From Balneolaceae bacterium (GTDB lineage: Bacteria > Bacteroidota > Rhodothermia > Balneolales > Balneolaceae): a stretch of 57,960 nucleotides of DNA. Made by a program: the position numbers and the translations under genes. The stretch lies in NCBI GenBank assembly GCA_017643365.1, contig JAEPNO010000018.1:1-57960 (forward strand), in the 5' to 3' direction. The notes below the pieces were generated by a model that saw only the letters and a list, made by a program, of their open reading frames with translations, was not told where the DNA came from and ran no database searches. Positions 14,946-55,397 of this stretch are shown piece by piece; the stretch's first letter is position 1; each line of letters begins with the position of its first letter.

Positions 14946-14947
14946 AA

Positions 14948-15523: not shown

Positions 15524-15555
15524 GAATTACAATCGTTGAATAGTTTTATTAGTGG

Positions 15556-21512: not shown

Positions 21513-21520
21513 ATCGGATA

Positions 21521-21555: not shown

Positions 21556-21580
21556 GAATTTGTTGTTCAACAATGATTAA

Positions 21581-23143: not shown

Positions 23144-23161
23144 TTTCTATAGTTTTTTAAG

Positions 23162-26182: not shown

Positions 26183-26709
26183 AACTAAGAATTTAGATTA
26201 TAGGTTAGATTGAGAATGAGTAGGGAAACTATGCGTGTAATCGCAGCTGATATTATATAGTAGCGCTTCCAAAGCTAGTTTGTGAGTGATTACGAAGATG
26301 ACCATAGTGAGTGTTCCTGACTCCACCAAAAAAATGGGCATACTAGTTGTAAATAGCAACTGAAATAAATTCGTACAATTATGGGAAAAATTCCCACAGT
26401 GTTTAGTAATTCTTTCAAGCTAAACACTTTAACATTAAATAAATTACTCGATGAATTTACTTAATTAGCGATTTTTGGAGTGGCAATTACATAATTTTTA
26501 AGAACTTGAAGGCTTATTAATAATTCGATCTATCGCTAAAAACTATATTAAAATAATTGGAAAATTGACTGTTTGATTAATTTAAATCCATCTCAGTTTC
26601 CTTCACTTTGCCTGTAACGGATTCATTTACCAGCGTAAATGAGAGAATTTTTCCAATACCTTATTACAGGGATATATATTAATTGATTTCAACAACTTAA
26701 ATAGCTGCT
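26183..26709 (-). promoter_or_regulatory. A/T-rich spacer with likely promoter of the SusCD operon
   Basis: No credible gene is present. The region separates two leftward operons and should hold the SusC promoter. On the minus strand TAGCTTTG (plus 26270-26277) matches the Bacteroidota -7 consensus TAnnTTTG, about 90 bases before the SusC ATG; the expected upstream TTTG element is only partly matched (TTCG near 26293). The 26400-26700 part is very A/T-rich and shows no clear terminator for the upstream haloperoxidase operon. Confidence 0.35.
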
Positions 26710-28059: not shown

Positions 28060-28064
28060 TGCTT

Positions 28065-36804: not shown

Positions 36805-38181
36805 TTATTTAATCAGCATCATTTTCTTTACGCTTACAGAATTACCAGCTGTTAAGCGATAAACATATATCCCGGAAGAGAGATTAGAAGCATCGAATGC
36901 AACCGTATGAGATCCGGCATTTTGCACACCATTTACCAAGCCGGCTACTTTCTGCCCTTTCAAGTTGTAAACATCTAAACTTACCTTACCTGATACAGGA
37001 ATAGAATAGGAGATATTTGTAGTAGGATTAAATGGGTTTGGATAATTTTGCTCTAAGCCAAAACCATCGGGTACTTCTGAAAATTCGTTGCTTGTTGCAT
37101 CTGCATTGTAGAAGTACATATTATCGATAAATGCAGTTGTACCACCAGCAGGTGCTGCACTAAAGATAAATTGAGCCAAGTTGGTGGTGTTCGTTAATCC
37201 GGTAAAATCTGTTAATGATAGATCATAGCTAATCCATTCGCCCTGAGCAGGATTTTCCCAAACTAGTTCATGTTCTGTATCATCGCCTTGCCCGTCACCA
37301 CCTTCACCGCTGTATCCACCGGTAGGTCCGAAATCAACTATTTTAAATCGAAAAGTAGTAGCATTAGGCGTCCACAAATCAAAACGAACATGAGTCATGC
37401 TGCTTGCATCAATTTGACTTGAAACCGTTTCGATTCCCACAAAATTTAAGTTGGAGTACTTTTTTGTGGCATTACCGTCTACAGTTACATCAGCAAATCC
37501 TGAATTCGACCAACCTGTTTGCCAAGTATCCACAGCAACATCGGTGTATGCATCGCTAAACAATGAGATCACATTAGCTGCGTCTTCGGTTGGAGTTGGC
37601 GCTGCCGTTTCCGGGGCAAGCCCACCACTGCTTAAATCGCCAAAAGTTACGTTATCGAAGTAGATCACATTTTCCTGACTTCTCGCAGTAAAATCCGGGA
37701 AAATAGTAAGCTTAGCGAACACACCACCTTCACTTGCCGGTGGATTATTTTTATCCGAGAAATCGAAAGTCAGTTCTTCCCATTGATTAGTTACTGTATT
37801 AGCAACTTTGATTTCGCCTTCCGACCAACCACCTGCTGCTTCCAGTTTAATTCCTACGTCGGAGATAGTTGATTTCCAAACCATGATTTTAATGGTTCGA
37901 TTGTTGTCGTCTAAAGTAAACGTTCCGATGCCATCGGTGGTAACTCCGGCAAAGGTTGCGCCAACAACTCTGGCGGTAAACTTAGCCACTTTAGCTGATG
38001 TGTTTGGGTCGGTCGCATCCGGATTATCAATGACCTCTAGCGCCGGGTTATCAGTATTTTCAAATACTTCCCAGGTCCAGTCGGCTCCGTTGCCATCGGC
38101 TTCGAAATTAACAGGGCTATTTTGTGCTACCAGCGATGTTGAAAAAGCTAATAGCATTAATGTTAGTAAATATGGTTTCAT
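36805..38181 (-). CDS. Secreted two-module glycan-binding-like protein with T9SS sorting domain
   Basis: A 458-residue protein with a signal peptide (ending LVAQ), two beta-sandwich-like modules and a C-terminal type IX secretion sorting domain (about 375-458: [44 protein letters not shown]). Module X (about 22-183) has the pattern [17 protein letters not shown] ... WEELTFDF ... KLTIFPDF ... IYFDN. Module Y (about 200-360) starts [16 protein letters not shown] and includes NLNFVGIET. Both modules recur in the lipoprotein at 49703-52219. No catalytic residues are seen, so a role in binding glucan outside the cell is inferred. The frame opens upstream at 38256, but ATG at 38181 begins the signal peptide. 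It is the only T9SS-sorted protein in the window. Confidence 0.85.
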
Positions 38182-38266
38182 AATAGATTTTTTAAAATGT
38201 GTTTTAATTGTAGCGAAGTGTATAATGTTATTTCTCCTTGATTTATATTTGCGCACTTACCTAATA

Positions 38267-39211
38267 CTAATGCGTTGACTTTTGGCGGATATAATTAGGA
38301 TTAACTGCCAGTTTTGGGGTACGATCAGCCCGGTAAATTCCCCAGTGTTTTTCCGGTTCCCATGGGTCGGGCGATCCTTTCCAATTTTCATCAAAAGCTT
38401 CGAAGAAAAAGGTCAAAATGCCTTCTTTCTCAGTCCATTCCATCAGTTCAGAATAATATTTCTTCTGAAATCCTTCGTTCACATTGCTAACATCAATCCC
38501 TTGCCCATTTGATTTGGTCGCCCAACCGGCTTCGGTAATCACCACAGTTTTATCGGGATATTTTTCTGCAACGGAGTAGTAATTTGCTTTGGTGAATGCG
38601 AGTCCTTCTTTAATGCTTTTGTATTCCCAAACGGGATAAGTGTGTATAGAAATAAAATCCAGAAATTCTCCCAGTTCAGTAAGCTTGTCTAGCCATGGAA
38701 CATAGTTTTCGCAAAATGTAACCTGTTGATTGGTATTAGCTTTCACTTTTTGAGCATAACTTAGAACGTTTTTTTCCGGAACTAAATGGTCGGTCCACTC
38801 AACACAAGTTTCGTTGCCAATCGAAAGTGAAAAAATGATTTCAGGGTACTTATTCCCCATTTCAATCAGTCGGTCAATTTTGGCCTGATTAACCTTCTTA
38901 TTCTTGTCGAGCTGAACTTCATCATAAACTCCACCCCACGGACAATTAGGATTGCTGATTTCAGCGCCGATATCGGCACCCAGCATTATTTTGAAATCCA
39001 GGCCTTCTTTATCAATTACATCCAGCACTGTTTGTGCATGCAAACTGGAATCATACAATCGCAAATACTTCCAATTGTTTTTCAGAATCAGTAAGTCTTC
39101 TTTTATTTCATCGTAGGATGGAAACTCCCCGCCCGGATGTTGTCCATCTCTGAACCCAGAGTAACAAATGGCTTGTCCCGGTGTTAAACCGAGGTTTTCG
39201 AATGTACTCAA
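38267..39211 (-). CDS. GH17-like glycoside hydrolase, cytoplasmic
   Basis: A protein of about 314 residues of the GH17-like clan A group (exo-beta-1,3-glucanase-like). Acid/base and nucleophile are Glu134 in SIGNETCVEW and Glu227 in VITEAGWAT, numbered from the start used here. It has no signal peptide. Start: ATG codons at 39301 and 39277 would overlap the upstream gene by 60-86 bases, and the added residues merely read the upstream gene's conserved C-terminus in another frame. The TTG at 39211 lies four bases after the upstream stop and begins just before the conserved PGQAICYSGFRDG strand, so it is preferred, though an ATG start is not excluded. Closest in the window is the GH17-like lipoprotein at 44025-45299. 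Confidence 0.82.
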   Translation of the reverse strand: MSTFENLGLTPGQAICYSGFRDGQHPGGEFPSYDEIKEDLLILKNNWKYLRLYDSSLHAQTVLDVIDKEGLDFKIMLGADIGAEISNPNCPWGGVYDEVQLDKNKKVNQAKIDRLIEMGNKYPEIIFSLSIGNETCVEWTDHLVPEKNVLSYAQKVKANTNQQVTFCENYVPWLDKLTELGEFLDFISIHTYPVWEYKSIKEGLAFTKANYYSVAEKYPDKTVVITEAGWATKSNGQGIDVSNVNEGFQKKYYSELMEWTEKEGILTFFFEAFDENWKGSPDPWEPEKHWGIYRADRTPKLAVNPNYIRQKSTH

Positions 39212-39215
39212 ATGG

Positions 39216-40121
39216 TTAGTATTTAAGATTGTTATTGCTATCCCAAACGCCCCAATAGGCTCCAACTTCACCTTCATCACTTTTTTTCCAGGCTTCATCA
39301 AACGAAGAGAAGTACATGACTTCGATGTCTTCGTCTTGGGTCCACAAATTTGTATTAATAAAGTATTTCAAGGCATTTTCTTTCGATGGAAGTGCTCCAC
39401 CTAAACCTTCACCTTGGCTAGGCCAACCTGTTTCAGTTATGATCGTTCGCTTACCATTTCCGGCTGCTTTCGCTTGATAATACATTTGGCGCATATGATT
39501 TAGCGAATCCTCGAATGAGGTGCCTTCCCAATACGGATAGCAATTACAGAGAATCACATCGCAATTTTCTGCCAACTCGGGATGTACACTGAATTCGTAA
39601 TACGCATCCACATAGCCAACAGGCACATCGGGTATTTCCTTTTTCACTTGTTGGATGTATTCAACGAGCCTTTCCAGCGATAGATCGTTGCGATAAAGCA
39701 CTTCGTTACCAACTACGGCAATATCAACCATACCTTTTTTGGCTAATTCGATAAGACCGTCGATCTCGCCTTTATTCTTCTCTTCATCATCACCCAACCA
39801 TGCACCTACCATTGTTTTGAGGCCGAATTCTTTGGCTACTTCCGGAACCAATTCGTTGCCTTCGGTGGTAGAAAATGAGCGAATCCATTCACAATGACTT
39901 GCAAGAATTTGCATCCTACGATGGATCTGAGGCTTAGGAATTATATCACCCGGTTCTTGCCCTTCTTCGTACAAACTAAAACAAAAACCATGTATCCCTT
40001 CGGTTAAAATCTCATGGAATAAGTCATTCATTTCCTTTTCGCTTAACCCTTCTAAATAGTCTACTTTAGAAAGCAGCGAGGATTTTTCGAAGCTTAGAAA
40101 TTTTTCTTTTCTATACGACAT
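39216..40121 (-). CDS. GH17 beta-1,3-glucanase, cytoplasmic
   Basis: A 301-residue GH17 enzyme with the family signature TETGWPS (nucleophile Glu230) and acid/base Glu140 in VVGNEVLYR. It has no signal peptide and should act in the cytoplasm on imported laminari-oligosaccharides by hydrolysis or transglycosylation. It closely resembles the C-terminal domain of the preceding transporter fusion, sharing WIRSFSTT, VDAY, NCYP[YF]WEG, SFDE and GLW/GVW blocks and the same 90-residue spacing between the catalytic glutamates. It follows that gene by two bases, suggesting a tandem duplication of the GH17 domain. It is followed by a third GH17-type gene. Confidence 0.88.
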   Translation of the reverse strand: MSYRKEKFLSFEKSSLLSKVDYLEGLSEKEMNDLFHEILTEGIHGFCFSLYEEGQEPGDIIPKPQIHRRMQILASHCEWIRSFSTTEGNELVPEVAKEFGLKTMVGAWLGDDEEKNKGEIDGLIELAKKGMVDIAVVGNEVLYRNDLSLERLVEYIQQVKKEIPDVPVGYVDAYYEFSVHPELAENCDVILCNCYPYWEGTSFEDSLNHMRQMYYQAKAAGNGKRTIITETGWPSQGEGLGGALPSKENALKYFINTNLWTQDEDIEVMYFSSFDEAWKKSDEGEVGAYWGVWDSNNNLKY

Positions 40122-40123
40122 GT

Positions 40124-42502
40124 TTACTTAATTTTTAACTGTTCATTTTTATTCCAAAGTCCCCATCGGGCACCAACATCACCTTCGTGGCGTACTTTCC
40201 AAGATTCATCGAACGATGAGAAGTAATACATATCCACATCGTTAGCTTTACTCCAGGTTGCCATATTGATAAAGTACTTCATCATATTTTCAAGAGATGG
40301 GACTGCATCGCCTACTGTTTGCCCTTCAGATGGCCAGCCGGTTTCAGAAATAATTACTTTTTTACCTTTGCTGATGGAAGACACCAGAGCGTACATTTTT
40401 TCCACCACACTCATCGAATTTTCGATGGAATATCCTTCCCAAAATGGGTAGCAATTAATCATTACTACATCGCAATAATCCAGTAATTCGGGATGATCCA
40501 GGAAAACGAAATAGGCATCAACATAAGCCACCGGTGTATTCGGCAATTTCTCTTTCACTCGCTTGAGGTAATCGATCACTTGCTCTACCGAGAGTTCATC
40601 TCGCATGATGGTTTCGTTACCAACGGTAGCAATATCAACGGCGCCGGTTTTTGCCAACGAAATGAGTTGTTTCATTTCTCTTTCGTTGTTTTGGAGATTG
40701 TCGTCAATCCATGCACCCACTACCGATTTCTTATCGAATTTATGGGCAATCTCCGGAGTTAATTCGTTGCCACCGGTTGTTGAAAATGAACGAATCCATT
40801 GCACGTGTGGAGAAATAATCTTCACTCGTTGCTCAATTTGTGCTTTCGTTAATTGATCGCCAATATTCTGATCATCTTTATAAGGACTGAAGCAAATCCC
40901 TGAAAAACCTTCCGTCATTAATTCCTGGCATTTGGCTGATAATGTGGCAGCGTCGCTATCTAAATGAATAGGCGTATATGGGTTCTCTACCTCAATATTT
41001 GAGAACGAGTTCGCCTTACCAATCTGATAATAACTGGTTTGCTCTCCTTCTTTTTTCTTTACTTTTTTACCACCTTTTCGAGCTTCTAATTTGGCTCTAA
41101 TTTCATTCGCTCGCTCTTCGTCAATGTCGTAACTCCACATAACTAAAATGGCGATGAAAGTACCAAGAATCGGCAATCCGGAGAAGAAAGCGCGAAGACC
41201 GGTAATGCCCGGCCACACCTCGCCGATTTCGATCGGGCCGGGAAGCGCATCCGCACTAAATCCAACAATGCTGAGGATAATTCCGCTCAATCCACCGGCA
41301 ATAGCAAAACCGAATTTAACCATCCACCAGTAAATAGCACCAAAAACGCCTTCGCGACGGATTCCGTAATTCAGCTCATCCAAATCGATCACATCTGCCG
41401 TCATCGACATCATTAGGGTGAATAGGCTACCAATCCCAAAAGAGAAAAACGGAAGCGCAATAATAAACATGTAGGGTTTACCCGGAATCAGTAAAAACCA
41501 AAAGAGTAAATATCCTACTATCGATAGCGATTGTGATACAATGAAGGCTTTTTTCTTGCCCATCATTTTCGACATTTTAGCCACAATCGGTATTACAATA
41601 AAAGTGGTAACGATAGCGCCAAGACTACCAAATAAGGTTGGCCAGATTCCTGCCGCGCCTGCATCCCCACCGAATAAATGATATACAATAACAAAGAAAG
41701 TAAAGGCCGCAACGGTATTAAAAGCGTTGAAGATCAAGAATGTGGAAATACACAATTTTCGGAACGGAACCGACTTAAAAGCTTCTTTAAAGCTGTTAAT
41801 GATTTCCTTAAAACCATTTCCAATATTTGATGCCGTAAGAGGCATGTAATCGTCACGGTCTTCGGTAGATTTTTCTTTGATTATGATGGCCGGAATCATC
41901 GCACAAAACATAAAGATGATACCAACCCAGGTAGCGAGTGTTCGGGTAGCGACTTCAGCAGACTCAAACCACTCCGGGTCGTACATAATTACCCAGAACC
42001 ATGGAGCGATAACCCACGCCCACTGCCCAATCCATTGTGCAATGGCCATAATTTGAGTTCGTTCGTGGAAGTCGTCGCTCATTTCGTAGCCCATTGCTAC
42101 GTAAGGCACACTAAAGATGGTTAGCCCAAGAAAGAATGCCACCGAACAAGCCATGAAATAAGTGAAGTTGTAAATCACGCTATTGTCGGCATACAGCTGC
42201 CACATGATGATAAAACTGAGCCCCATAACAATGGCACCAAGGAAAACATACTGTCGGCGCCGGCCCCATTTTGAACGTGTGTTATCCGAAATAAAGCCCA
42301 TTATCGGATCGGTGAAAGCATCAAAAATACGAGGGAAAAAGAAAATCACGCCCCACATCCACCCGGGAAAGCCCAAATCCTGAACCAATACCACCATAAA
42401 GATGCTCAGTACAGCCGGGAACATCTGATTTGCGAGCATTCCAAATCCAAATGCTAGTTTATATGAATAAGGGACACTCCGTTTTGTAGCCTGTGTAGCC
42501 AT
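40124..42502 (-). CDS. GPH-family sugar:cation symporter fused to a GH17 glycoside hydrolase domain
   Basis: A 792-residue fusion. Residues 1-465 form a 12-segment transporter of the MelB-like glycoside-pentoside-hexuronide family, with the signature DAFTDPIMGFISDNTRSKWG (61-80). A short basic linker (about 465-490, RKGGKKVKKKEGEQ) leads to a GH17 domain (about 500-792) with acid/base Glu630 in TVGNETIMR and nucleophile Glu720 in SETGWPS. With both termini of this transporter class in the cytoplasm, and a lysine-rich linker consistent with that, the hydrolase should act on sugar as it enters the cell. The reading frame is continuous with no sign of a missing stop. The locus context points to laminari-oligosaccharides. 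Confidence 0.9.
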   Translation of the reverse strand: MATQATKRSVPYSYKLAFGFGMLANQMFPAVLSIFMVVLVQDLGFPGWMWGVIFFFPRIFDAFTDPIMGFISDNTRSKWGRRRQYVFLGAIVMGLSFIIMWQLYADNSVIYNFTYFMACSVAFFLGLTIFSVPYVAMGYEMSDDFHERTQIMAIAQWIGQWAWVIAPWFWVIMYDPEWFESAEVATRTLATWVGIIFMFCAMIPAIIIKEKSTEDRDDYMPLTASNIGNGFKEIINSFKEAFKSVPFRKLCISTFLIFNAFNTVAAFTFFVIVYHLFGGDAGAAGIWPTLFGSLGAIVTTFIVIPIVAKMSKMMGKKKAFIVSQSLSIVGYLLFWFLLIPGKPYMFIIALPFFSFGIGSLFTLMMSMTADVIDLDELNYGIRREGVFGAIYWWMVKFGFAIAGGLSGIILSIVGFSADALPGPIEIGEVWPGITGLRAFFSGLPILGTFIAILVMWSYDIDEERANEIRAKLEARKGGKKVKKKEGEQTSYYQIGKANSFSNIEVENPYTPIHLDSDAATLSAKCQELMTEGFSGICFSPYKDDQNIGDQLTKAQIEQRVKIISPHVQWIRSFSTTGGNELTPEIAHKFDKKSVVGAWIDDNLQNNEREMKQLISLAKTGAVDIATVGNETIMRDELSVEQVIDYLKRVKEKLPNTPVAYVDAYFVFLDHPELLDYCDVVMINCYPFWEGYSIENSMSVVEKMYALVSSISKGKKVIISETGWPSEGQTVGDAVPSLENMMKYFINMATWSKANDVDMYYFSSFDESWKVRHEGDVGARWGLWNKNEQLKIK

Positions 42503-42527
42503 CGTATTCCGTTCCTATAGTTAGTTA

Positions 42528-44012
42528 TTATTCCTGTGAATCCAATACAATTGTTTGTAATGCCTGTCCGTCGATGGTAACTGTTTTTTCCACATTCCCC
42601 AGTTTAATCGACATAGTTTTTGCATTTTCTGTTTGATTAAGCACTACCACAGCTATCGATCCATCCGGATTTTGAGCTGCGGTTACCAATAATTCGTCGT
42701 CGTTGTGTTGATGTCCAATTCGATACGCATCCGGACGAATAAAACGGCTGAAGTGTGCCATAGTGTAATACAATGGCGTGAAATAAACTTCATCGGCTTC
42801 AGGATCAACAATTACCGGTGCTAAACACCAGTTATTTGCCCAATTTGGTCCACCCTGTCGATCGAGTACCATATTCCAATCCACCCAGCCATCAACCCAA
42901 TTATTCAGGGTTCCGATAATATCACGAGCATAGCGATACACCGGTACATATTTTGGGTGTAAATATTTTTGCTCTTCCGGAGCCCAATCCCATCCCCAAT
43001 CGGTGGCTTCTTTGGCCCAATACCAGTCATCATCCTGCCAGCGCGGTACATCGGCATCGGCAGTGGCTTCAGATTGAATCAAATACTTGTCCGGAGCGGC
43101 ATTATGAGCGTATTGCAGAGCTTCTTCGAATACATCGTAAGTGCTGGCATACCAGTGAATGGCAGTCCCATCGAAATACTTGGCAGCTTCTTCATCGCCG
43201 TACATTACATCTACCCATTCTTCCAAGTGATCTCGGTTTTGATCGTAGCCTAGTAATACCACATCAGGATGAGTTTTCTCAAGTTGAGGACCTAGATGTT
43301 TGACCACAAACTCGTTCATTTCTTCGGGCGTGTAGTGCATACTTTCCCAGTTCTCGCCATTACCTAAAGGCTCATTTTCAACCGTAATTCCCCAAATGTC
43401 TATGCCTTGCTCGGCATAAGCATCCAGATATTTAGAGAAAAACAGCGCCCAGGTATCGTAGTATTCGGGCAATAACTTCCCTCCTTTCCAGGCTTTGTTG
43501 TCTTTCATCCAGATGGGGGCGGTCCAAGGCGATGAGATAATTTTAAACCCATCTTTCGAAATCGTCATCGCATCTTTTATAGTCGGGATGATGTCGTCCA
43601 TGTCTTCTTCAATCGAGAAGTTTTCGAGGGTAACATCGCCGGGGATAGGCGCATACGAATAGTTGCTCAATGAAAAATCGCTGGAGTTCATATGCGTTCG
43701 GGTTAGCGAATACCTTGCCCCACTTTCCCCAAAATAGGCTTCTAGAATTTTAGTGCGATTTTCATCACTCAATTGATTGAGCAAGTATGCCGTCGACTCA
43801 GTGAACGATCCACCAAAACCGGTAATTTTTTGAAATTTCTCATCCGGATTTAGCGTGATTTCAACAACATCCTCCGTTTCAACGAATTCAGTAACTTCGG
43901 TTAACTGATTTCCATTTGCTGATGTCTCGTACACTTCCATTTTAAGGTCTTGATTTGAATTACATCCGATCATCAGCAAGGCAAGAAAAATAGTTAGTAA
44001 TTGTGTTTTCAT
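42528..44012 (-). CDS. GH30 family glycoside hydrolase lipoprotein
   Basis: A 494-residue lipoprotein (LLMIGCNSN). The chain shows a GH30 barrel plus beta domain: GFGGSFTES near 65, ISSPWTAPIWMK at 159-170, acid/base Glu214 in TVENEP and nucleophile Glu315 in LIQSEA, then a C-terminal beta domain to residue 494. Members related to this one act as beta-glucosidases or beta-1,6-glucanases. In a laminarin-type locus the likely job is removing beta-1,6-linked side chains outside the cytoplasm. It lies between the GH17-like lipoprotein and the transporter fusion with 12- and 25-base gaps. Confidence 0.9.
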   Translation of the reverse strand: MKTQLLTIFLALLMIGCNSNQDLKMEVYETSANGNQLTEVTEFVETEDVVEITLNPDEKFQKITGFGGSFTESTAYLLNQLSDENRTKILEAYFGESGARYSLTRTHMNSSDFSLSNYSYAPIPGDVTLENFSIEEDMDDIIPTIKDAMTISKDGFKIISSPWTAPIWMKDNKAWKGGKLLPEYYDTWALFFSKYLDAYAEQGIDIWGITVENEPLGNGENWESMHYTPEEMNEFVVKHLGPQLEKTHPDVVLLGYDQNRDHLEEWVDVMYGDEEAAKYFDGTAIHWYASTYDVFEEALQYAHNAAPDKYLIQSEATADADVPRWQDDDWYWAKEATDWGWDWAPEEQKYLHPKYVPVYRYARDIIGTLNNWVDGWVDWNMVLDRQGGPNWANNWCLAPVIVDPEADEVYFTPLYYTMAHFSRFIRPDAYRIGHQHNDDELLVTAAQNPDGSIAVVVLNQTENAKTMSIKLGNVEKTVTIDGQALQTIVLDSQE

Positions 44013-44024
44013 GGTATCAGCTTG

Positions 44025-45299: not shown

Positions 45300-45311
45300 G
45301 CTAACCTCTAT

Positions 45312-48300
45312 TTATGAATTAATAAGTCTGTGTTCTTTTATGGATACTTTTAATATCGTCACCTCACCGGTTCGACCGAAAATCATCGCGCTTGTTTTCT
45401 TATCGAGCGATAATCCATTAAATGATTGGGAAGCGCCGTTTTGCAAATATGCTTCAATTCCATCCTGTTCTTCAATTTTGTAGATCACAGGAACCTGGCA
45501 ATAACTGAATGCCAATGCGTTTTTAGGAACCACAACTTCGTTCTCATTTCCATTTAGATTCGAAATCTGATAAGTGCCGGGCTCGGTTAAAAACTCGGAT
45601 TTACGTAATATAACGGGGTTAAACGACAGTACGCCATCCTCTACTTCGATTCCAAGTTCGCCGATTCTGGCCAGAATATCTTCCTTCACTTGTCCGGTCA
45701 TTCCGGGCTGTTGTGCTCCACGGTGATAAGGTGTATGAGAGTATGGATCGGTTGGAAAAGCGCCATACACTTCGGGAGATTTATGGATTCCGATGCCTTC
45801 ACCAATTTCATAGAAATGTTCGGCAAGTTTGGCTTTTACTTCTTCATCAGAGCCTGCTTTTTCTGCCTGATCGCATACTTCGAAAGCTGCCAGATACAAC
45901 TTCGAAACCATGTGCCAGTAAATAGATCCCAATCCCTCGTAGCCATAAAACGTACCCGAGCGTCCGGTAAATGCTTTGTGATTGAATACATCTTCGAAAG
46001 TATCCAAAATGGCTTCCCTTTCTTTAGCCACGAGATCAGCAAATTCGCTGTCTTCAAGTGAAGTCAATGCTTTATCAAGATCGCCGGCATTTTTGAAATT
46101 ACCATTGAAATGATAACCACCGTTCACATCTTTGCTGATAATTCTGGTATCTCCCGTTTCCACCATCTTACTTAATAATTTGGATGATGACACCGCTGAT
46201 TCCGGCACATTATTGCGTTGTAAAAAGCCCGGCAATTCTTTGTTTGGATACAGAATGTAACTTGCCTGATCCTCGCGATACAAGGTGCTTTGGCGCAATC
46301 CTTCAAGCACTTCCAGCGATTCTTCAGCAGTCAAATATCCTGAACTCAATACCGCAACTTGTCCTTCCAGCATTTCATCAAGATAAGAAATGGAGATTCC
46401 ATCGCCTTCAATACTCATGATATTATAGGCATGGTACAAATTGTCATTTCGCTTGTTTGAGCGAATTGAATGCTCTAAGTACTCGTTTGTAACCGCAACA
46501 AATTCTCGTACAGCTGAAATATCTAAATTTGATAACTCACCGGAAAAACCGTTGTTGTAAATGCTATCTCGATAATCACTAGCTGCTTTACCAAGGGCAT
46601 CGGTGATTGTCTTGCGCTGTTCGTCGCTAACTGCTCCACTGATCACCACTTTGTGAGTATCCAGTGTTTTTTTGATGGAATTGAAGCAGTCTAGTAATTC
46701 AACCGAAACTTCAACGCTATCGTCGGTTACGCTAGCCAGTACATTTTGCATGTGTGCTAAAAATCTGCGCAAGTAATACAAGGTAACCATCGAAACCCCA
46801 TTCCCCACCAAGGCGTTGTTGGCGTCGTTCCATTCCGGACGTTGAGTGTTCATCCAGATGCCGCCTTCGGGAATGAGATTTGATACTTTGGCTAAGGTTG
46901 TAGCCAATAACTTTTCGAGCAGACTTACCCGATGAATTTCATTCTTTTTGTTGATGAGAAGAGCTCCATCTGCCCCGATTTCTGCTACTCGTTCTCGAAT
47001 AGCTTCGTCTCCCTCTGCATCAAAATCGATGGTGTCTTTTGGGTTTTTGGCAATGTCGTCGTAGCTCTTAATTCGATACGGAACGTTGGCATATACAAAT
47101 ACATCTTCATCCATTAAAGCCGGGAAAGCTTCCGGTTGATGCTTCTCGTACAATTCCAAAAACTTGAGTAGATAAATGATTTGATGATCACCCCAATACC
47201 CGATGTACGACCATGGATCGTCGGGCTCGATGGTTTCCCAATCGAAACCGCCTTTTGTAACGCGATAAGGGTTGTAGCCATCAAAAGTTGTGGCATTGAG
47301 GAATTTGAAAATCATACCCTCTAAAAACTTCGGGTACGAATGAGCTAATGCTTCCCAGTTTTGGAAAATGTCGCGCCAGTTACCTTCGTAATCAAGGATC
47401 TTAGTTCCATCTTCATTATGGGTATTGATCGAAAAACGGTTCCAAGGACGAGATGGATCGCCATGTCGGCGACTGAATTTTAGTGGCAGATATTCTTTAA
47501 CTAAACGGATCAGATCGGCATCGTCGCTATTGTCGATGGTTGATAGCAACACCGATTGGTCGAAGACTTCCGGCAGGTCGCTAAGCAGTTTTTGATTTCT
47601 TTGAAAGGTCGGCTTACTGGCGTTATCCAAATATTGGGCAAAATCATCTTTTTCAATCTGATAATGATGATCGAAAATACCGCCACGCATGATGTTAAAT
47701 AACACATTTGAATAATGGCGGGCATCTTTAAGCTCGTCGGCACTTAATTGCATGCCATCAGACTGTGCAACCAGATTCTTCAGTTTTTTGGTGCCTACTT
47801 GTACATTTTGATCCACTTCATGCTGAAGCTCATCCGGATCGGATTTCAAACGCTCGTTAAGGGCAATTGTACCTGCGTGGTTTTGATTCACATTGGCTAC
47901 CAAATTCCAAGACTCATAGGTACCGGCGGCCAAGGTTAATTCAGTACAAACAAAGTACGCGCCTTTTTCACCTTTAATATCATCTTCGGCAGTTACTGAT
48001 GCACCATTTCTAAAAGCATCTAATTGAAGCGATGAGACCAAGTAGGTTGGATTTTTTAAACCGGTAGACCAAACAACATTGGCTTTTAATGCTTCGCTCG
48101 GTTCTGCTTTATCAACAGGAATTGCACTCAGTGCGTAGATGCCTAAGCCCGTTTCCGTAACCATTTCCGATCTTTTATATGCATCAAGCAAGTTGCTTGA
48201 TCTCACCTGAAGATCACTATTTACACTTGCCGGCAGAATATTCTGAATACCATCCAGAATAGTGATGGTAACATCCGAATCTGCAATATTTTGAACCGTT

Positions 48301-48779
48301 GAAGTTCGTACGAAACCGAAATCGTTGCTGGATTTCCACTCGTATTTGAACGATAAATTCAGATCATGATTTATCTCTTCGAATAAAACTTTATTGCCCC
48401 ACCGACTTTTATACAAATTTCGCGAAGTATTGTATCGGTGTTCATCGTGTTTAGAAAACGGCTCCCAAACCTGCTTCTTGCCGTCGACAACCACTTGAAT
48501 GATGGTTTTTGAACCGGTGATATCAGCAAACTCTGTAATTTTATCATCTGTGTAATACGGAAACAACGAAAACTCTGAGTTCTTTCTTCCTGCGGTAAGT
48601 CCGCCATTGCTTGAAATGAACATCCAGTGATTCGAATCACTAACTATGCTCATGAAAAAAGGTCGGATTTTATCCGAATCGGTAATCTTGAAATAGGGCT
48701 CGTTATTAATGGTAACAGCTTCTAATTTGTTACTTGCTGTTTGAGTACCCGTTGAATTTTTGTTTGATGATAGGCTCAT
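45312..48779 (-). CDS. Beta-1,3-glucan phosphorylase, GH149/GH161 type
   Basis: A 1155-residue cytoplasmic enzyme without signal peptide. It is related to GH94 phosphorylases and best fits the long beta-1,3-oligoglucan phosphorylases of GH149 (or sister family GH161), which convert beta-1,3-glucan plus phosphate to alpha-glucose-1-phosphate. An N-terminal beta-sandwich (about 20-310) is followed by an (alpha/alpha)6-type domain with GNWRDIFQNWEAL (466-478), GYWGDHQ (527-533) and RPEWNDANNALVGNG (647-661), the last placing the likely catalytic Asp, and by a C-terminal jelly roll. Family choice between GH149 and GH161 is uncertain by eye; length and GH17/GH30 neighbours favour GH149. It conserves phosphate-bond energy from imported glucan. 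Confidence 0.78.
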   Translation of the reverse strand: MSLSSNKNSTGTQTASNKLEAVTINNEPYFKITDSDKIRPFFMSIVSDSNHWMFISSNGGLTAGRKNSEFSLFPYYTDDKITEFADITGSKTIIQVVVDGKKQVWEPFSKHDEHRYNTSRNLYKSRWGNKVLFEEINHDLNLSFKYEWKSSNDFGFVRTSTVQNIADSDVTITILDGIQNILPASVNSDLQVRSSNLLDAYKRSEMVTETGLGIYALSAIPVDKAEPSEALKANVVWSTGLKNPTYLVSSLQLDAFRNGASVTAEDDIKGEKGAYFVCTELTLAAGTYESWNLVANVNQNHAGTIALNERLKSDPDELQHEVDQNVQVGTKKLKNLVAQSDGMQLSADELKDARHYSNVLFNIMRGGIFDHHYQIEKDDFAQYLDNASKPTFQRNQKLLSDLPEVFDQSVLLSTIDNSDDADLIRLVKEYLPLKFSRRHGDPSRPWNRFSINTHNEDGTKILDYEGNWRDIFQNWEALAHSYPKFLEGMIFKFLNATTFDGYNPYRVTKGGFDWETIEPDDPWSYIGYWGDHQIIYLLKFLELYEKHQPEAFPALMDEDVFVYANVPYRIKSYDDIAKNPKDTIDFDAEGDEAIRERVAEIGADGALLINKKNEIHRVSLLEKLLATTLAKVSNLIPEGGIWMNTQRPEWNDANNALVGNGVSMVTLYYLRRFLAHMQNVLASVTDDSVEVSVELLDCFNSIKKTLDTHKVVISGAVSDEQRKTITDALGKAASDYRDSIYNNGFSGELSNLDISAVREFVAVTNEYLEHSIRSNKRNDNLYHAYNIMSIEGDGISISYLDEMLEGQVAVLSSGYLTAEESLEVLEGLRQSTLYREDQASYILYPNKELPGFLQRNNVPESAVSSSKLLSKMVETGDTRIISKDVNGGYHFNGNFKNAGDLDKALTSLEDSEFADLVAKEREAILDTFEDVFNHKAFTGRSGTFYGYEGLGSIYWHMVSKLYLAAFEVCDQAEKAGSDEEVKAKLAEHFYEIGEGIGIHKSPEVYGAFPTDPYSHTPYHRGAQQPGMTGQVKEDILARIGELGIEVEDGVLSFNPVILRKSEFLTEPGTYQISNLNGNENEVVVPKNALAFSYCQVPVIYKIEEQDGIEAYLQNGASQSFNGLSLDKKTSAMIFGRTGEVTILKVSIKEHRLINS

Positions 48780-48843
48780 CGCTGTTAAACTTTTTGTTGT
48801 GAGTGAAGTTATTGAGTTTGCTTTATTGTACCGCTAGTGCGAG

Positions 48844-49680
48844 TTATCCATCGTAGCTATACACTCGAACGTAATCTACATACATTGCCTGTGGAAATGG
48901 TGTGCTGCTATCCGGTGAGCCTACAAACGACCCGCCAACAGCAACGTTAATAATGATGTAGAACACATTGTCGTTAAAAACCCATTCGCCGTTCACATCA
49001 TCAGGAGTGATTTCGTTATACATTTCATCATCAACGAAATAGCGAATAAAATCCGGACCCCATTCAATAGCAAACACATGAAACTCTGAATCGAATCGGC
49101 CTGACTTTAAATTGTAGGCAGCTCCTTCTGCTTGCCCGGCCGAGTATCCCGGACCATGCACACTTCCGTGAATGATCGTTGGCTCTTGCCCCCGATATTC
49201 CATGATATCAATCTCACCGATTTGTGGCCAAACAACGGTTCCGTTGGAATCGTCGCCGAGTAACCAAAATGCCGGCCAGATTCCTTGCCCAAATGGAAGC
49301 ATAATTCGAGCCTCGTATCGGCCGTAGGTTTGCTCAAAAATTTCTCTGGTTAAAATTTTTGCAGAGGTGTAATTCGAGTTTTCAAAACGCTCTTTACGGG
49401 CTGTTATCTCTAACATGCCGTTTTCAACTTTGATATTATCAGAACGATCGGTGTAATACTGAAGCTCGTTATTACCCCAGCCCGGTGTTCCGAAAATCTC
49501 TACTCCGGTTCCAATATCGAACGACCATTTTGAAGCATCAACGGATCCTTCAGTATCAAATTCGTCTGACCAAACCAGCGTTGCGAATTCGTTTTCCGGT
49601 TCGTTGGTGCTCTCCTTGCATCCCTGTAACACAAGGATGAAGGAAAGTATCAGTGAAAAAACAGTTAGATGTTTGTTCAT
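48844..49680 (-). CDS. GH16 endo-beta-1,3-glucanase (laminarinase) lipoprotein
   Basis: A 278-residue lipoprotein (LVLQGCKES, Cys21). The GH16 catalytic signature GEIDIMEYRG is at 155-164, with nucleophile Glu156, Asp158 and acid/base Glu161. Other family blocks are WSDEFD (37-42), GWGNNELQYYT (67-77), RYEARIMLPFGQGIWPAFWLLG (121-142) and the C-terminal MYVDYVRVY. It should cut laminarin-type beta-1,3-glucan at the cell surface or in the periplasm. The frame opens upstream at 49761, but those 27 residues overlap the preceding gene; ATG at 49680 begins the lipoprotein signal. It is preceded by the binding lipoprotein gene (22 bases) and followed by the phosphorylase gene (64 bases). Confidence 0.93.
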   Translation of the reverse strand: MNKHLTVFSLILSFILVLQGCKESTNEPENEFATLVWSDEFDTEGSVDASKWSFDIGTGVEIFGTPGWGNNELQYYTDRSDNIKVENGMLEITARKERFENSNYTSAKILTREIFEQTYGRYEARIMLPFGQGIWPAFWLLGDDSNGTVVWPQIGEIDIMEYRGQEPTIIHGSVHGPGYSAGQAEGAAYNLKSGRFDSEFHVFAIEWGPDFIRYFVDDEMYNEITPDDVNGEWVFNDNVFYIIINVAVGGSFVGSPDSSTPFPQAMYVDYVRVYSYDG

Positions 49681-49702
49681 AAAACGTAAAGTGAGTTTTG
49701 CC

Positions 49703-52219
49703 TTAGTTTGATTGGATGATGTTATCGATATAGAAGGTACCGGTGGAATTTCCAGGGCCATCCATAAAGATGGTCAAACGAGGGAAGGAAGCAGTTGAAG
49801 TGAATGTAAAGGTTAACTTTTCCCATCCTGAACCGGTATGATTTTGGGGATTTTCATCAAAATCGCCCTGATCAACCTCAATTTTCATTAACACTGGAAT
49901 GGCAGTTGTTGAATACACATCCATAGTTATAGTTTGGCCATTCGCAAAATTGATATTGTTCTCTAAATCAAAATAGATGCCTTCCCATTGCTGGCCAACA
50001 TTGGTGATCGAACCCACTTTAGATGCTGTGTTGTTTGATCCCGAAACATCAGGATTGTCAACCACTTCGTAGGCTGTTCCGTTAAAGGTTGTTGCAGCAT
50101 AAATCACATTCGAATCGTCGAAGGTAATTGGTAATTCAGGGGCAGTTTTTTCGCCACCGCCAGAGCCACCGGTTCCATCGGTATAGTAGTAGATGTTGTC
50201 TACAAAAATATCTGAGATGGTGTCGTCTGAGACAAAGAAAATCAAACCAATTTTATCCTGAGCGGTAAGATTGAAATCGGATAATGGAACGTCGAAACTT
50301 ACCCATTCTCCTTCGCGCAGAGCTCCCGAATTAAAGGTCACAGACCCGGATGATTCGTTGCCTCCAACATCGTTGATAAGCTGGAATCGAATGAAATCGC
50401 CTGCTGTGATGGCTTCGTTTACATAGATATCAACATGAATGTGCGACATTTCCGAAACATCCACCGGTGAGTTGGATTGATTTGGATCAACACCTGTTCC
50501 GATCCCTACAAAATTGAGATCGGTGTAATGAATGATTCCATCGCCATCAATCAATACATCAGCACCCTGAGGTCCACCGTCGAAACCGGTTCCGCCCAGA
50601 GTAGTTTGTCCATCACCATTAAAGAAGCCGTTGTAGTAATCTACAGGTACATTCGTGTAAGCATCGCTGAAGATAGAAATCACGCTATCGGCATCTTCTG
50701 TTGGAACCGGTGCAGTTTCAATATCAACAGGTTCACCACCATTGCCGCCATTACCACCGTTACCGCCTGATCCATCAGTGCCGTCGTCGTAGTAGAAAAT
50801 ATTATCAACATAGATGTTTGAGATAGTGGCATCACTCACAAAGAAGATAAGTCCAAGTGCCGAGCGATCGGCCAATCCGAAATCAGCAAGTGGAATGTCC
50901 AGACTCAGCCAGTCGTTTTCTAGTAATTGATCGTCGGTGATTCTAATCGAACCGGAGGTTTCATTCCCACCTACATCATTGAGTAATTGGATGGTTATGT
51001 AGTCGCCCGGATCTATGCTTTCCTGAACGTTGATATCAACATGCATGTGAGTCATCTCAGTTGCATCAACAGGATTTACATTTAAGAATGTACCAATACC
51101 TACAAAGTTCAGATCGGTATAGTTGATGATTCCATCACCATTTACGACGATATCGGCACCTTGCGGACCGCCATCAAAACCGGTTCCACCTTGAGTTGTT
51201 TGACCATCACCGTTAAAGAATCCGTTGTAATAATCAACCGGAACGTTGGTGTATGCATCACTAAATATCGAAATAACGCTGTCGGCCGGAACCGTTGGCA
51301 CAGGCGCTGACTGGAAAGTTCCATTCGAAATCACCGTTAAAGAACCGTCGGCTTCGGTGCCATCAATCATACCGGTGATTGTTGCAGTTCCTTCTCCAAC
51401 CACGGTTACAACACCGTTTTCATCAACCGTTGCAACTGCCGGGTTTGAAGAAACAAAATCGAAGTAACCGGACGCAACTGTAAGCATTACATCCTGGCTG
51501 ACTGTAGTTTCATCAGCTAAAGTGATGATCGTATTTAAGGTTTGTTCGAAACCCGTAATTGAATAGGAAAGGTTTACAAAACTGGTAATGGTTAGGTCTT
51601 GCCCGTTGTTAATAGCTGGACGTGGTTGAGCTATATTACCAAGTTTTTCGAATTTCAAATCATCCACCCAAAAACTGTAGCCGTCTCCATTTTCAGGTTC
51701 TTCAGCAAACCAGAACATTCCGGTCATTGCTGTTAATTTATTGGAAGCCGGAAATGGTATCACATATTTTTTCCAGTATGTAGATAATTTAAGACCATCC
51801 AAACGAACTTCGAAATCGTTATCGCCTTCAACACCTTGCCCAAAACCTACGCTGTTTATAACTCCTGCCTTCGAACCTTTAGCATAAAAGGTTAATGCGT
51901 CGTATTCTGTGAGATCTCGTCCACCGTTTAAATCTACAAATGCAGCGCCCGCATAAGATCCTGATGGATCTCCTGCATTAGGCACATCGATACGCATGGA
52001 TGCATCCGAATTATTATAAGTTACATCGGTATCAACCTGAAATGCGTCGAGTTTTGCGAAGCCATCATCGTAGGGAAAATATTCCAGTCCGGCACTAAAG
52101 CCATCGATGAAAACATCCGGATTATTGGTTAAGGTCGGCTCGCTAAGTCCGTCTACCGATCGCTGGCAACTTGCTGCAAAAAAGATGACAAGTAAACCTG
52201 CAAATAAAGAACGAGTCAT
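49703..52219 (-). CDS. Multi-module glycan-binding lipoprotein
   Basis: An 838-residue lipoprotein (signal MTRSLFAGLLVIFFAASCQ). Modules in order: a CBM11-like domain (about 30-190, ending YSFWVDDLKFEKL), a bacterial Ig-like BIG_2 domain (about 200-300, FVSSNPAVATVDENGVVTV), module Y twice (about 312-490 and 517-700, each starting SVISIFSDAYTNVPVDYYNG) separated by a GGNGGNGGNGG linker, and module X (about 710-838, ending TFYIDNIIQSN). Modules X and Y also make up the T9SS-sorted protein at 36805-38181. There are no catalytic residues. It probably holds glucan at the cell surface, like SusE/SusF or surface glycan-binding proteins. The frame also opens at 52243; ATG 52219 starts the signal peptide. 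Confidence 0.85.
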   Translation of the reverse strand: MTRSLFAGLLVIFFAASCQRSVDGLSEPTLTNNPDVFIDGFSAGLEYFPYDDGFAKLDAFQVDTDVTYNNSDASMRIDVPNAGDPSGSYAGAAFVDLNGGRDLTEYDALTFYAKGSKAGVINSVGFGQGVEGDNDFEVRLDGLKLSTYWKKYVIPFPASNKLTAMTGMFWFAEEPENGDGYSFWVDDLKFEKLGNIAQPRPAINNGQDLTITSFVNLSYSITGFEQTLNTIITLADETTVSQDVMLTVASGYFDFVSSNPAVATVDENGVVTVVGEGTATITGMIDGTEADGSLTVISNGTFQSAPVPTVPADSVISIFSDAYTNVPVDYYNGFFNGDGQTTQGGTGFDGGPQGADIVVNGDGIINYTDLNFVGIGTFLNVNPVDATEMTHMHVDINVQESIDPGDYITIQLLNDVGGNETSGSIRITDDQLLENDWLSLDIPLADFGLADRSALGLIFFVSDATISNIYVDNIFYYDDGTDGSGGNGGNGGNGGEPVDIETAPVPTEDADSVISIFSDAYTNVPVDYYNGFFNGDGQTTLGGTGFDGGPQGADVLIDGDGIIHYTDLNFVGIGTGVDPNQSNSPVDVSEMSHIHVDIYVNEAITAGDFIRFQLINDVGGNESSGSVTFNSGALREGEWVSFDVPLSDFNLTAQDKIGLIFFVSDDTISDIFVDNIYYYTDGTGGSGGGEKTAPELPITFDDSNVIYAATTFNGTAYEVVDNPDVSGSNNTASKVGSITNVGQQWEGIYFDLENNINFANGQTITMDVYSTTAIPVLMKIEVDQGDFDENPQNHTGSGWEKLTFTFTSTASFPRLTIFMDGPGNSTGTFYIDNIIQSN

Positions 52220-52256
52220 AATAGTTAAATTTAAATCTTTCATTTACTTATCTCTT

Positions 52257-55200
52257 TTAATTTCTGATGTCGATTTGAATGTATGTACGGATTTCCCATT
52301 CTGAACCGTAGCCTAAATCTTCGGCGCCGGGTTGCAGGGTAACTTCGCCGGTAGCATCATCCACATCGGCAAGTGAGTAGCGTGGTGAGTATCGGTTTAA
52401 GCTGCGATAAGTACCGCGTACACCTAAACGTGTTGTAGGCAGATCAAACCAGTCGGGTTTGCCTAATGTGGTCGAGAAATCAGCCATTAACTGCACCGGA
52501 TACGTTTGGTTGAAATCGCGGTTGTAATCAAAAGGCCCCCAATCGTTGAATCTCGCAAAGGAGTTCAATTTCAAATTTTTGTAGATCATTTGAAGATCAG
52601 TACCGAAACGTGTGATTTTTCGTGGATCGTTACCATTGGCCTGACCTTCCCCACCGTAAATCACGGCAACAAAGCCCAGATCTCTATTCAGTTTTGATAC
52701 TACTCGAGCGTTTACTTCAATCAAGTCTTCGGCAGGAGCAGAACCATTAAAGGCAAAAGTTGAACGGCCATCCGGTAGAATACCAATGGCAGCATCTTGT
52801 ACGGTTGGCAAGTGTCTGTAAATAACACCTAAACTGATTGCCAATTTTGCATCTTCCGAACGGTTGCTGTCCCAGTTGTACATCCAGGTTCCCGGAGTTG
52901 GATCCCAGGTTAGAACCAATTCGCCGGAAGTTTGCTCTCGGTTCGAACGCACTGCAAATGGATCGTCGATATAGTTACGAGGACGTGCACCGCCATCTAA
53001 ACCGGCAGGAATTGGACCTTCGATTGGTTTTTGCCATAAGAAATTTGGTGCGATTTGTAAATTTCCGATTGTGTAGGTGAATCCGGAAAGTACATTCATC
53101 TGGTTGCCACTACCGCTGTCTTTTAGTCTCCAGCCGGTAAACGTTTGGGTTTGATCGGCACCACCGTTGGCAACTAAGCCTTGAATGGCTCCCTGACCAT
53201 ACCAATTAATTAAGCCACCTGTATAGGTCAATTTCATTTTGGCACCAAAGTTATCCATTGGTTTGATCTCATCAACGTAGGCATTGTATGTACCATCTTC
53301 GTTTTCGCGAACCAACTGGAATTCACGTCCGTTTAACGGTTGACCAGCCCAAATACCACCCACTTCAACACCTAGTTTTCCAAATTCTTGAGCGGCATAT
53401 AATGTGAGTCTTCTGGTTTTTGGCCGAGGAATAGCAAATGAACTTTCGGTTGTTCTCTGCTGCTCTAAATCTTCATGGAAAATCCCGGTTAGTTGTGTTT
53501 GGCCAACCATCTTGGTGTATTTAATTAAGAAAGCCGGATTGGCTCCCCACCATAATTCAGGACCAAAAGCGGCTTTAAGTCCGTCGAACTGATAACGCCC
53601 TTCAACTTCGAAACCGAATGGTGCAGTACCGTTATAAATATCGATGTTTGGGCCATAATTCGCCTCGGGATATAATCCAAAGAAATCGCCCTCATATCCC
53701 CAGTGATAACGCCCTGTTCGGTAAAATCCGGTGATATCAAAATACTTGCTCGTCCATTCGTACTCGGCGCTGTAAATAGCCACGCGATTGACATCCGTAA
53801 GCGTAACATCACCGTTGGGTCCTTCAACATCTACAGGTCGGCCGCGATTCTCGTAAAAGATTTCGTCGATCGGATTACCAGGAACATTGCCCAAAATACT
53901 GGTAACCAAATTCGCCCGGATATTTGGAGCAGGATTAGCTTCCACTCCGATAAAAAATGTTTCTAAATGATCGAATCCCTGCTGAGTTGGATATTCTCTT
54001 TCGTTTGGATTCGGCTCTTCGGGAGTAGTGATATAAGTTCCGCCGGTGCTGTAGGTTCTAAAATCAGCGGTGAATTGGCTGAGTCGAATAATATCTGCTG
54101 CCGAGCCTTCTAACGCGGCTTTATCGCCACGAGCTTTTAGTACAGCACCTTGAATGGAAATTGCATCGAAATATTTTTCTAAATCGTAAAGAGAGGCGTC
54201 TTCATCATATACATCATAGCGATGCGCTTCTTGCAATACATAATAAGATGCACGTGGGAAAAGCTCATAATAACCAAAAGGATCGGTTGGCCCTTTTGCG
54301 GTAATACCAAACCACTCTTCGTTCATGTTGTTTTGGCCATTCGCAAAATCGAACTGGTAGCCACCATTTGCCCAAGAAGCATTGATATCATGTATATCTA
54401 AATTTTCAACTTGGCCATATTTCCACCAACCATCACTAAACTGGAAAGTAAAACCACCAATAGAATTGTTGTTTTTACCCATTCCGGCTGCGTTCTCGTA
54501 AATCTCTTTCCAGTTTCCTTTTTGATAATATGCCTGATCGCCTTGCGCTTCTTTTAAGGTTCGAGCGTTAAACGCATCTGAGCCAAACTCGGTAAGTAAA
54601 ACAGGCTTGTCGTATTCGTTGGCTACACGCTCGTATAAATCGGTAAATGAAATACCGCGATAGGTGTTAGTTCCAAAAATGTCGATATCCGGGGCATGCT
54701 CAGCAATTTGATCCATAAACAACAAATCACCATTACAGAGCGCAATCGGGTGATTGGTACTGATATTCTTCATCGCCAACGTTGCTTCGTTAAACAACTT
54801 GTACATGTCGATAGCTTTTTGTGTCGACTTTCGATCTTCCATCGGGATGTCTTCGGTTTCAGCACCTTCCCAGAAAAGACCATAGTTGTTTTCGTTCCCT
54901 AATAAGAACAATAGTAAACCCGGAGTGTCTTGATACTCGCTCACTAATTGAGTGGTTTCGGCAAGTAGCAATTCCCGCACTCGTGGATCACCATAATCTG
55001 TGTTTGGGGTCCACACACCATCAAGGGTCAGCCCATATCTACCGAATGAGTGATTAAGCATGGTATAAATTCCGTAGTTCTCGTAGATATAAGTAATCCA
55101 CTCGGGCTGAATTCCGGTATATACCCGAATTGCATTTACTCCCATATTTTGAAGTAAACCCATTTCGTAATCAAGGGCTTGCTTAATAAAAGCCGGTTCC

Positions 55201-55397
55201 TGATTCCATAAACTGTAAGAGTAATTAGTGCCTCTCGGGAAGTAATCCCAATTCATACCATTAATCATTAATGGCTCGCCGTCCACCATCATCACCCAAC
55301 CTTCGTTGGTTTTTTGAACTTGGATATCGTTTGATTGTGCGGCTAGTTGAGTTGAGAAGAGAAAAGAAAGTGCTAAAAACGTGGTAATTTTTTTCAT
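52257..55397 (-). CDS. Clan-A glycoside hydrolase fused to an outer-membrane beta-barrel
   Basis: A 1046-residue protein, first in the locus. After a signal peptide (ending LAAQ) comes a TIM-barrel glycosidase of the GH2/GH5/GH72-like type (about 25-400). Its probable acid/base is Glu169 in FLLGNENNYG and its probable nucleophile Glu270 in LLTEFGSDAF; MINGMNWDYFPRG and NAIRVYTG are typical first strands. The remaining 570 residues (about 475-1046) are alternating amphipathic strands rich in Tyr, Trp and Gly (VAIYSAEYEWTSKYFDITGFY, FGAKMKLTYTGGLINWYGQG, IAPNFLWQKP) ending in RTYIQIDIRN, as expected for an outer-membrane barrel. No TonB box or plug is seen, so it is porin-like. It may cut and pass glucan fragments in one protein; activity on beta-glucan is inferred from context. 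Confidence 0.85.
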   Translation of the reverse strand: MKKITTFLALSFLFSTQLAAQSNDIQVQKTNEGWVMMVDGEPLMINGMNWDYFPRGTNYSYSLWNQEPAFIKQALDYEMGLLQNMGVNAIRVYTGIQPEWITYIYENYGIYTMLNHSFGRYGLTLDGVWTPNTDYGDPRVRELLLAETTQLVSEYQDTPGLLLFLLGNENNYGLFWEGAETEDIPMEDRKSTQKAIDMYKLFNEATLAMKNISTNHPIALCNGDLLFMDQIAEHAPDIDIFGTNTYRGISFTDLYERVANEYDKPVLLTEFGSDAFNARTLKEAQGDQAYYQKGNWKEIYENAAGMGKNNNSIGGFTFQFSDGWWKYGQVENLDIHDINASWANGGYQFDFANGQNNMNEEWFGITAKGPTDPFGYYELFPRASYYVLQEAHRYDVYDEDASLYDLEKYFDAISIQGAVLKARGDKAALEGSAADIIRLSQFTADFRTYSTGGTYITTPEEPNPNEREYPTQQGFDHLETFFIGVEANPAPNIRANLVTSILGNVPGNPIDEIFYENRGRPVDVEGPNGDVTLTDVNRVAIYSAEYEWTSKYFDITGFYRTGRYHWGYEGDFFGLYPEANYGPNIDIYNGTAPFGFEVEGRYQFDGLKAAFGPELWWGANPAFLIKYTKMVGQTQLTGIFHEDLEQQRTTESSFAIPRPKTRRLTLYAAQEFGKLGVEVGGIWAGQPLNGREFQLVRENEDGTYNAYVDEIKPMDNFGAKMKLTYTGGLINWYGQGAIQGLVANGGADQTQTFTGWRLKDSGSGNQMNVLSGFTYTIGNLQIAPNFLWQKPIEGPIPAGLDGGARPRNYIDDPFAVRSNREQTSGELVLTWDPTPGTWMYNWDSNRSEDAKLAISLGVIYRHLPTVQDAAIGILPDGRSTFAFNGSAPAEDLIEVNARVVSKLNRDLGFVAVIYGGEGQANGNDPRKITRFGTDLQMIYKNLKLNSFARFNDWGPFDYNRDFNQTYPVQLMADFSTTLGKPDWFDLPTTRLGVRGTYRSLNRYSPRYSLADVDDATGEVTLQPGAEDLGYGSEWEIRTYIQIDIRN

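Follow-up and report, generated by a model that had tools for sequence, protein, structure and literature searches.

The subject of this work is a putative laminarin utilization operon that spans 55397 to 36805 on the minus strand of a contig of a Balneolaceae bacterium (GCA_017643365.1, JAEPNO010000018.1), of which the whole stretch of 57,960 nucleotides was analysed and is here called the window. With moderate confidence, we read the operon as serving the use of this β-1,3/1,6-glucan through an outer-membrane entry built not on a SusC/SusD pair but on a plug-less β-barrel, fused to a glycoside hydrolase (GH)-type enzyme, whose part in transport is predicted from its modelled structure. Among the explanations weighed below this one appears the most likely, on the strength of the enzyme set, the predicted barrel, the conserved trio of fusion, binding lipoprotein and GH16, the existence of carriers devoid of SusD, and the confinement of SusC/SusD linkage to a single clade.

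Ten genes form one run, spaced from slight overlaps to ~65 bases and arranged in the order of Table 1, and every gene named in a preliminary description of this DNA was recovered in place on the minus strand. The laminarin-type character that this description had assigned to the locus was borne out: GH16, GH30 and four GH17 domains are present with intact catalytic motifs (both Glu motifs in each GH17), together with a phosphorylase. It was likewise right that an enzyme-barrel fusion opens the operon and that an enzyme-symporter fusion lies inside it, while Pfam models for SusC, SusD and the TonB plug found nothing between 36 and 55.4 kb.

According to the mechanism that we propose, GH16 and the binding proteins would cut and hold the glucan at the cell surface, the barrel would admit oligosaccharides, and the fused GH158-like enzyme would trim them at the pore. 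Cutting and debranching in the periplasm would be carried out by a GH17 similar to FbGH17A and by GH30. The glycoside-pentoside-hexuronide (GPH) symporter would then bring the oligosaccharides into the cytosol, where GH17 domains (one of them tethered to the symporter) and GH149 may hydrolyse, transglycosylate or phosphorolyse them, glucose and glucose-1-phosphate being the expected products. The presence of GH149 means that the last step can be phosphorolytic, as previously supposed, and energy would be saved owing to the chemistry of this enzyme.

The barrel half of the fusion

In the AlphaFold model, residues 25-390 of the fusion form a TIM barrel, residues 403-434 a helical linker and residues 438-1045 a β-barrel. 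The barrel half had no sequence match in Pfam or in the Protein Data Bank (PDB), even when searched as a 22-member profile, and fold comparison was therefore used. The predicted barrel counts ~22-24 strands over ~620 amino acids (aa), with two-residue turns alternating with long loops, and its Foldseek matches were TonB-dependent receptors, LptD and porins. Comparison by VIA was uninformative on the barrel when the whole fusion was submitted, the rows covering the enzyme half only; with the barrel alone, it returned AlgE, OprD/Occ porins, chitoporin, maltoporin and ushers (Z 12-16), mostly at a root-mean-square deviation of 4-7 over 217-366 residues, that is, outer-membrane barrels in general, with no one family standing out. 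Fold matches, alternation of turns and loops, and the signal peptide all point to a predicted outer-membrane β-barrel. The TonB plug models PF07715 and PF13715 had no Pfam match in the fusion, which sets it apart from receptors of SusC type.

Strand positions in the barrel are conserved in alternation, 37 aromatic residues are near-invariant, and conservation reaches 93% in one long loop (positions 155-188 of the barrel alignment) and 90% in another (335-360). This pattern of sequence conservation suggests a specific path for a sugar or another ligand. The strand count puts both ends of the barrel on the periplasmic side, and by this parity the periplasm would also be the side of the fused enzyme.

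The enzyme half of the fusion

The N-terminal domain is a TIM barrel of clan GH-A, in which E169 (motif GNENNYG) and E270 (motif TEFG) align with the catalytic pair of GH158, i.e., the acid/base in N-E and the nucleophile. By Foldseek it was nearest to the GH158 laminarinases BuGH158 and GH158(Pro), with E down to 7e-14, and by VIA enzymes of GH158, GH157 and GH2 tied at Z ~25-27. Sequence comparison with GH158 gave E=1.3e-4 to 9oro (phmmer) and E=2e-7 to 6pal (profile), and the Ig domain of GH158 was not seen. The enzyme half shares fold and aligned catalytic Glu pair with the endo-laminarinases BuGH158 and GH157, but identity in the structural alignments is ~13-21%, and where GH158 has a C-terminal Ig-like domain the fusion has the linker and the outer-membrane barrel.

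A relation to GH2 was also considered. The GH2 TIM-barrel model PF02836 touches 19 of the 22 homologues (best 2.5e-11), and the homologue from Bacteroides is named by NCBI ‘glycoside hydrolase family 2 TIM barrel-domain containing protein’. In the window fusion this model was not matched and no other GH2 domain was found by Pfam, so that the protein lacks the marks of a GH2 enzyme.

Spread and conserved neighbourhood

Of 296 genomes sampled from the phylum, 26 carry the fusion at full length. Relatives of the barrel are encoded by at least 577 stretches in GTDB genomes; named carriers include members of Balneolaceae, Flavobacteriaceae, Saprospiraceae, Chitinophagaceae and Bacteroidales. Among the best 80 loci of the genome-collection scan, 79 have the barrel joined to the enzyme, the remaining one being cut by its contig; the binding lipoprotein follows directly in all 80, and GH16 comes next in 71. 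Barrel and lipoprotein also adjoin in 23 of 23 further mapped genomes with a full-length fusion, and the arrangement is therefore not a matter of chance. With some variation, these 23 genomes repeat the gene order barrel, lipoprotein, GH16, GH149, (GH17), (GH30), symporter, GH17.

The human gut species Bacteroides finegoldii carries the barrel fusion, the binding lipoprotein and GH16, with GH3 downstream and without SusC/SusD beside them; in its sequence NZ_OY725931.1 (L194:11867-22903) a fimbrillin-type protein stands in the row between GH16 and GH3. The same sequence is named a plasmid yet contains a valine-tRNA ligase gene and rpsA, and is probably a piece of chromosome. A GH3-like gene at the place of GH149, or at its side, is found in some Flavobacterium and marine loci, and was reported likewise for Muricauda. 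Genes that look GH3-like by eye replace or accompany GH149 in L125 and L138 (741 and 764 aa, after GH16) and in G049, G103 and G111 (577-610 aa).

Is a SusC/SusD pair required?

Three near-complete genomes that carry the operon (G066, G051 and G255) had no match to any of the SusD models PF07980, PF12771, PF14322 and PF12741, whereas two further genomes taken at first as SusD-free (G144 and G204) were dropped upon matches to PF12771. SusC/SusD adjoin the fusion in five sampled loci, all placed by the tree in one fully supported, 14-row clade of marine Flavobacteriaceae; because of this clade, the fusion cannot be regarded as a simple replacement of SusC/SusD everywhere.

The preliminary description had set beforehand, as the point on which its reading could fail, the SusC/SusD pair at 21.6-26.2 kb of the same contig. 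Entry of laminarin through this pair, with the barrel fusion as an accessory, seems improbable. The pair shares the contig with the operon and is conserved in the congener G123, but it stands among FG-GAP/UnbV and haloperoxidase-like genes, i.e., in another cluster, and close relatives of its SusD (E <= 1e-40) are missing in eight of the ten sampled Balneolaceae with a full-length fusion, the two exceptions being the window genome and its congener, while they are present in many sampled Balneolaceae without it. This phyletic pattern indicates that the operon is independent of the pair, and the point is thereby answered in part. In G115, where the assembly gives the fusion as a cut or broken gene, one relative of this SusD (46%) is present. 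The cluster itself (11685-31427) comprises the SusC/SusD pair, three large FG-GAP/UnbV-ASPIC proteins and a PAP2/vanadium-haloperoxidase-like protein. That the window genome has a single SusD, as PF07980 alone indicated, was rejected when further SusD models revealed, in addition to the SusD at 21.6 kb, three SusD-like genes in other parts of the genome.

Several observations weigh against an entry through the barrel. Confidence in the AlphaFold models is moderate (pTM 0.53 for the whole fusion, 0.76 for the barrel alone), and the enzyme half exists without barrel in four sampled genomes, as open frames of 438-465 aa (Table 1). The coexistence of SusC/SusD with the fusion in some Flavobacteriaceae means that the barrel may be accessory there. 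Other TonB-dependent receptors are encoded in all carrier genomes, so that one outside the operon may take part, and it is conceivable that a receptor of SusC type works with no SusD. Finally, the conserved linker helix could, contrary to the strand parity, thread the pore and display the enzyme outside.

The last point leads to an explanation that is possible, if rather unlikely, namely that the fusion is an autotransporter-like anchor holding the GH domain on the cell surface, with uptake entrusted to a TonB-dependent receptor encoded elsewhere. As in type V autotransporters with enzymatic passengers, an N-terminal enzyme, a helical linker (here with the conserved motif LxARGDKAAL) and a C-terminal barrel follow each other, and the window genome has 24 TonB plug matches to supply such a receptor; the Flavobacteriaceae in which SusC/SusD accompany the fusion fit this explanation as well. 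Autotransporter barrels are, however, made of 12 strands, about half those of the fusion, and no Pfam model, be it of the type Va autotransporters or of any other barrel, was matched in the 22 fusion members. Moreover, the conserved strand pattern and the aromatic loops, porin-like in character, indicate a ligand path, and the three carriers without any SusD also speak for entry through the barrel. Very improbable is that the locus serves the making, export or remodelling of an endogenous β-glucan, the barrel acting as exporter or anchor in the manner of AlgE or Wzi: AlgE and Wzi rank among the best VIA rows for the barrel and GH17 and GH72-like domains can be transglycosylases, but Pfam found no glycosyltransferase in the operon, the import symporter and the phosphorylase point to catabolism, and the syntenic operon of Formosa is induced by laminarin (PMC6246565).

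The symporter-GH17 fusion and the remaining genes

The second fusion of the operon joins a full-length GPH/major facilitator superfamily (MFS) domain to a C-terminal GH17 with both catalytic Glu; it is conserved in other genomes, and its PDB matches were MelB and a β-1,3-glucanosyltransferase. The distribution of charges in the sequence would place the GH17 C-terminus in the cytosol, where it would act after transport. The coupling of each membrane passage to cleavage, suggested in the preliminary description, was not borne out as a general rule: at the inner membrane it turned out to be optional, symporter and GH17 being separate adjoining genes in many close relatives. In the symporter tree, where several ‘unfused’ labels are genes cut by the end of the locus, 13 of the 14 fused proteins group in a single clade, and that of G053 belongs to the other. 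A single origin was consequently unsupported, and the fusion arose at least twice, with G053:C12:419350-421890 as the independently arisen copy. In an 820-aa MFS-GH17 of G042:C1, the fused GH17 is closest to the free-standing GH17b of the window and is not followed by a free copy, which would fit a fusion remade by deletion between GH17 genes in tandem.

This type of protein is not new, having been published in 2018. The Formosa MFS-GH17 (FbGH17B, FORMB_24740) has the same symporter with 12 transmembrane (TM) segments and C-terminal GH17, and the window copy differs from it only by its Balneolaceae host. Unfried et al. (2018; PMC6246565) found the Formosa protein to act on debranched laminarin and described the arrangement as common among Flavobacteriia of the sea. 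MFS-GH17 fusions are present in most variant-1 laminarin polysaccharide utilization loci (PULs), and also in the gammaproteobacterial SAR92 (PMC10108472).

The phosphorylase, previously left between GH149 and GH161, belongs to the former: it scored 1751.5 bits against the GH149 equivalog model NF058639, above the curated family cut-off of 1150, and its best solved relative, the top PDB match, was 6hq6. The GH161 identity was accordingly dropped. Residues 704-817 of the binding lipoprotein match PDB 8qx6 (E=3e-20), and in the GH16 reading frame, open from 49761, an internal Met is probably the true start. Scans for promoters and terminators gave signals at or below chance.

Beyond the end of the operon, the 216-aa protein with a TM segment and a helix-turn-helix (HTH) resembles the C-terminal end of propeller-type sensor regulators of ~900 aa that flank the operon in relatives, and this shortened form is found in the window genome, G123 and G187. 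An alpha-amylase lipoprotein (34124-36040) adjoins the operon end on the opposite, plus strand. The lone enzyme half of G293 has a SusC-like gene a short distance, i.e., a few genes, upstream.

Table 1. Genes of the operon and its probable regulator in the window, and enzyme halves without barrel in other genomes. CBM, carbohydrate-binding module; T9SS, type IX secretion system.
Feature	Position	Strand	Basis
Enzyme-barrel fusion, 1046 aa, signal peptide	52257..55397	-	AlphaFold, Foldseek/VIA, PDB profile, conservation
Glucan-binding-type lipoprotein, Big_2 and CBM-like repeats, directly downstream of fusion	49703..52243	-	Pfam, lipobox
GH16 lipoprotein, endo-β-1,3-glucanase type, motif EIDIME intact	48844..49680	-	Pfam E=2.6e-24
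GH149 β-1,3-glucan phosphorylase, no signal peptide (cytosolic)	45312..48779	-	NCBIfam NF058639, PDB 6hq6
GH17 lipoprotein, endo-laminarinase type, FbGH17A-like	44025..45299	-	PDB 6fcg E=8e-178, residues 1-420
GH30 lipoprotein, GH30_1-like, β-1,6-debranching type	42528..44012	-	Pfam E=4.7e-78, PDB; NCBIfam below cut-off
GPH/MFS_2 symporter with C-terminal GH17	40124..42502	-	Pfam; PDB; NCBIfam gph below cut-off
GH17, no signal peptide (cytosolic, MlGH17B-like)	39216..40121	-	Pfam E=1e-13
GH17, no signal peptide (cytosolic), exact start uncertain	38267..39277	-	Pfam E=7.9e-8
Secreted CBM-like protein, T9SS C-terminal sorting domain	36805..38181	-	Pfam, NCBIfam TIGR04183
Short TM and HTH (LuxR-type) protein, probable regulator, 216 aa	36051..36701	-	Comparison with relatives
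Enzyme half alone	G293:C14:854032-855258; G239:C23:10808-11989; G100:C47:18329-19558; G119:C39:3598-4797		

Relation to known laminarin systems

The operon is a variant of a known laminarin PUL. Variant B/variant 1 PULs, as in Formosa Hel1_33_131, Polaribacter and Muricauda lutaonensis, combine GH16, GH149, an endo-GH17 lipoprotein, GH30_1, an MFS transporter (often fused to GH17) and a cytosolic GH17 (PMC6246565, PMC13188888, PMC6298971, PMC10108472), and the window operon has the same enzymes. These PULs are nonetheless defined with SusC/SusD, as is the canonical PUL of Bacteroidota, while the window operon and most of its relatives were found without the pair and are headed by the barrel fusion. 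One published variant-1 PUL, from an NS4 metagenome-assembled genome, also lacks SusC/SusD (PMC10108472). The ‘GH2’ of the Muricauda PUL (PMC13188888) and the ‘GH0’ of highly expressed North Sea PULs (PMC10108472) may correspond to the barrel-fusion gene. A possible link to the TfGlcB clade, described as ‘lacking PUL architecture’ (PMC13352502), was considered as well. The Bacteroides 1,3GUL has in common with the present system a surface glucan-binding protein, a GH16_3, a GH158-type fold and the β-glucanase logic, but it includes SusC/SusD (PMC7157763), unlike the trio of B. finegoldii.

Implications for glycan uptake in the phylum

In the open literature searched, no description of the enzyme-barrel fusion or of its barrel half was found, and as far as this literature shows the new, unreported element is the fusion with the SusC/SusD-free surface core around it. 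We suggest, tentatively and with less confidence than for the operon itself, that this core may be a phylum-wide device for glycan import, independent of SusC/SusD and of a plug, whose pore and laminarinase are one covalent unit, with the enzyme perhaps also acting as a gate and with GH16 and a single dedicated binding lipoprotein as partners. Such a device would have escaped notice because annotation covers no more than its enzyme half; likewise, PUL prediction misses the enzyme-barrel core because PULs are defined by SusC/SusD and annotation sees half of the protein. Laminarin uptake in Bacteroidota is generally credited to SusC/SusD, for instance in PMC11345257, a paper that also records the lack of a direct biochemical assay of these transporters. 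Laminarin being among the most abundant marine sugars, a widely conserved enzyme-barrel core that in some genomes occurs without any SusD represents another candidate route for its entry into the cell.

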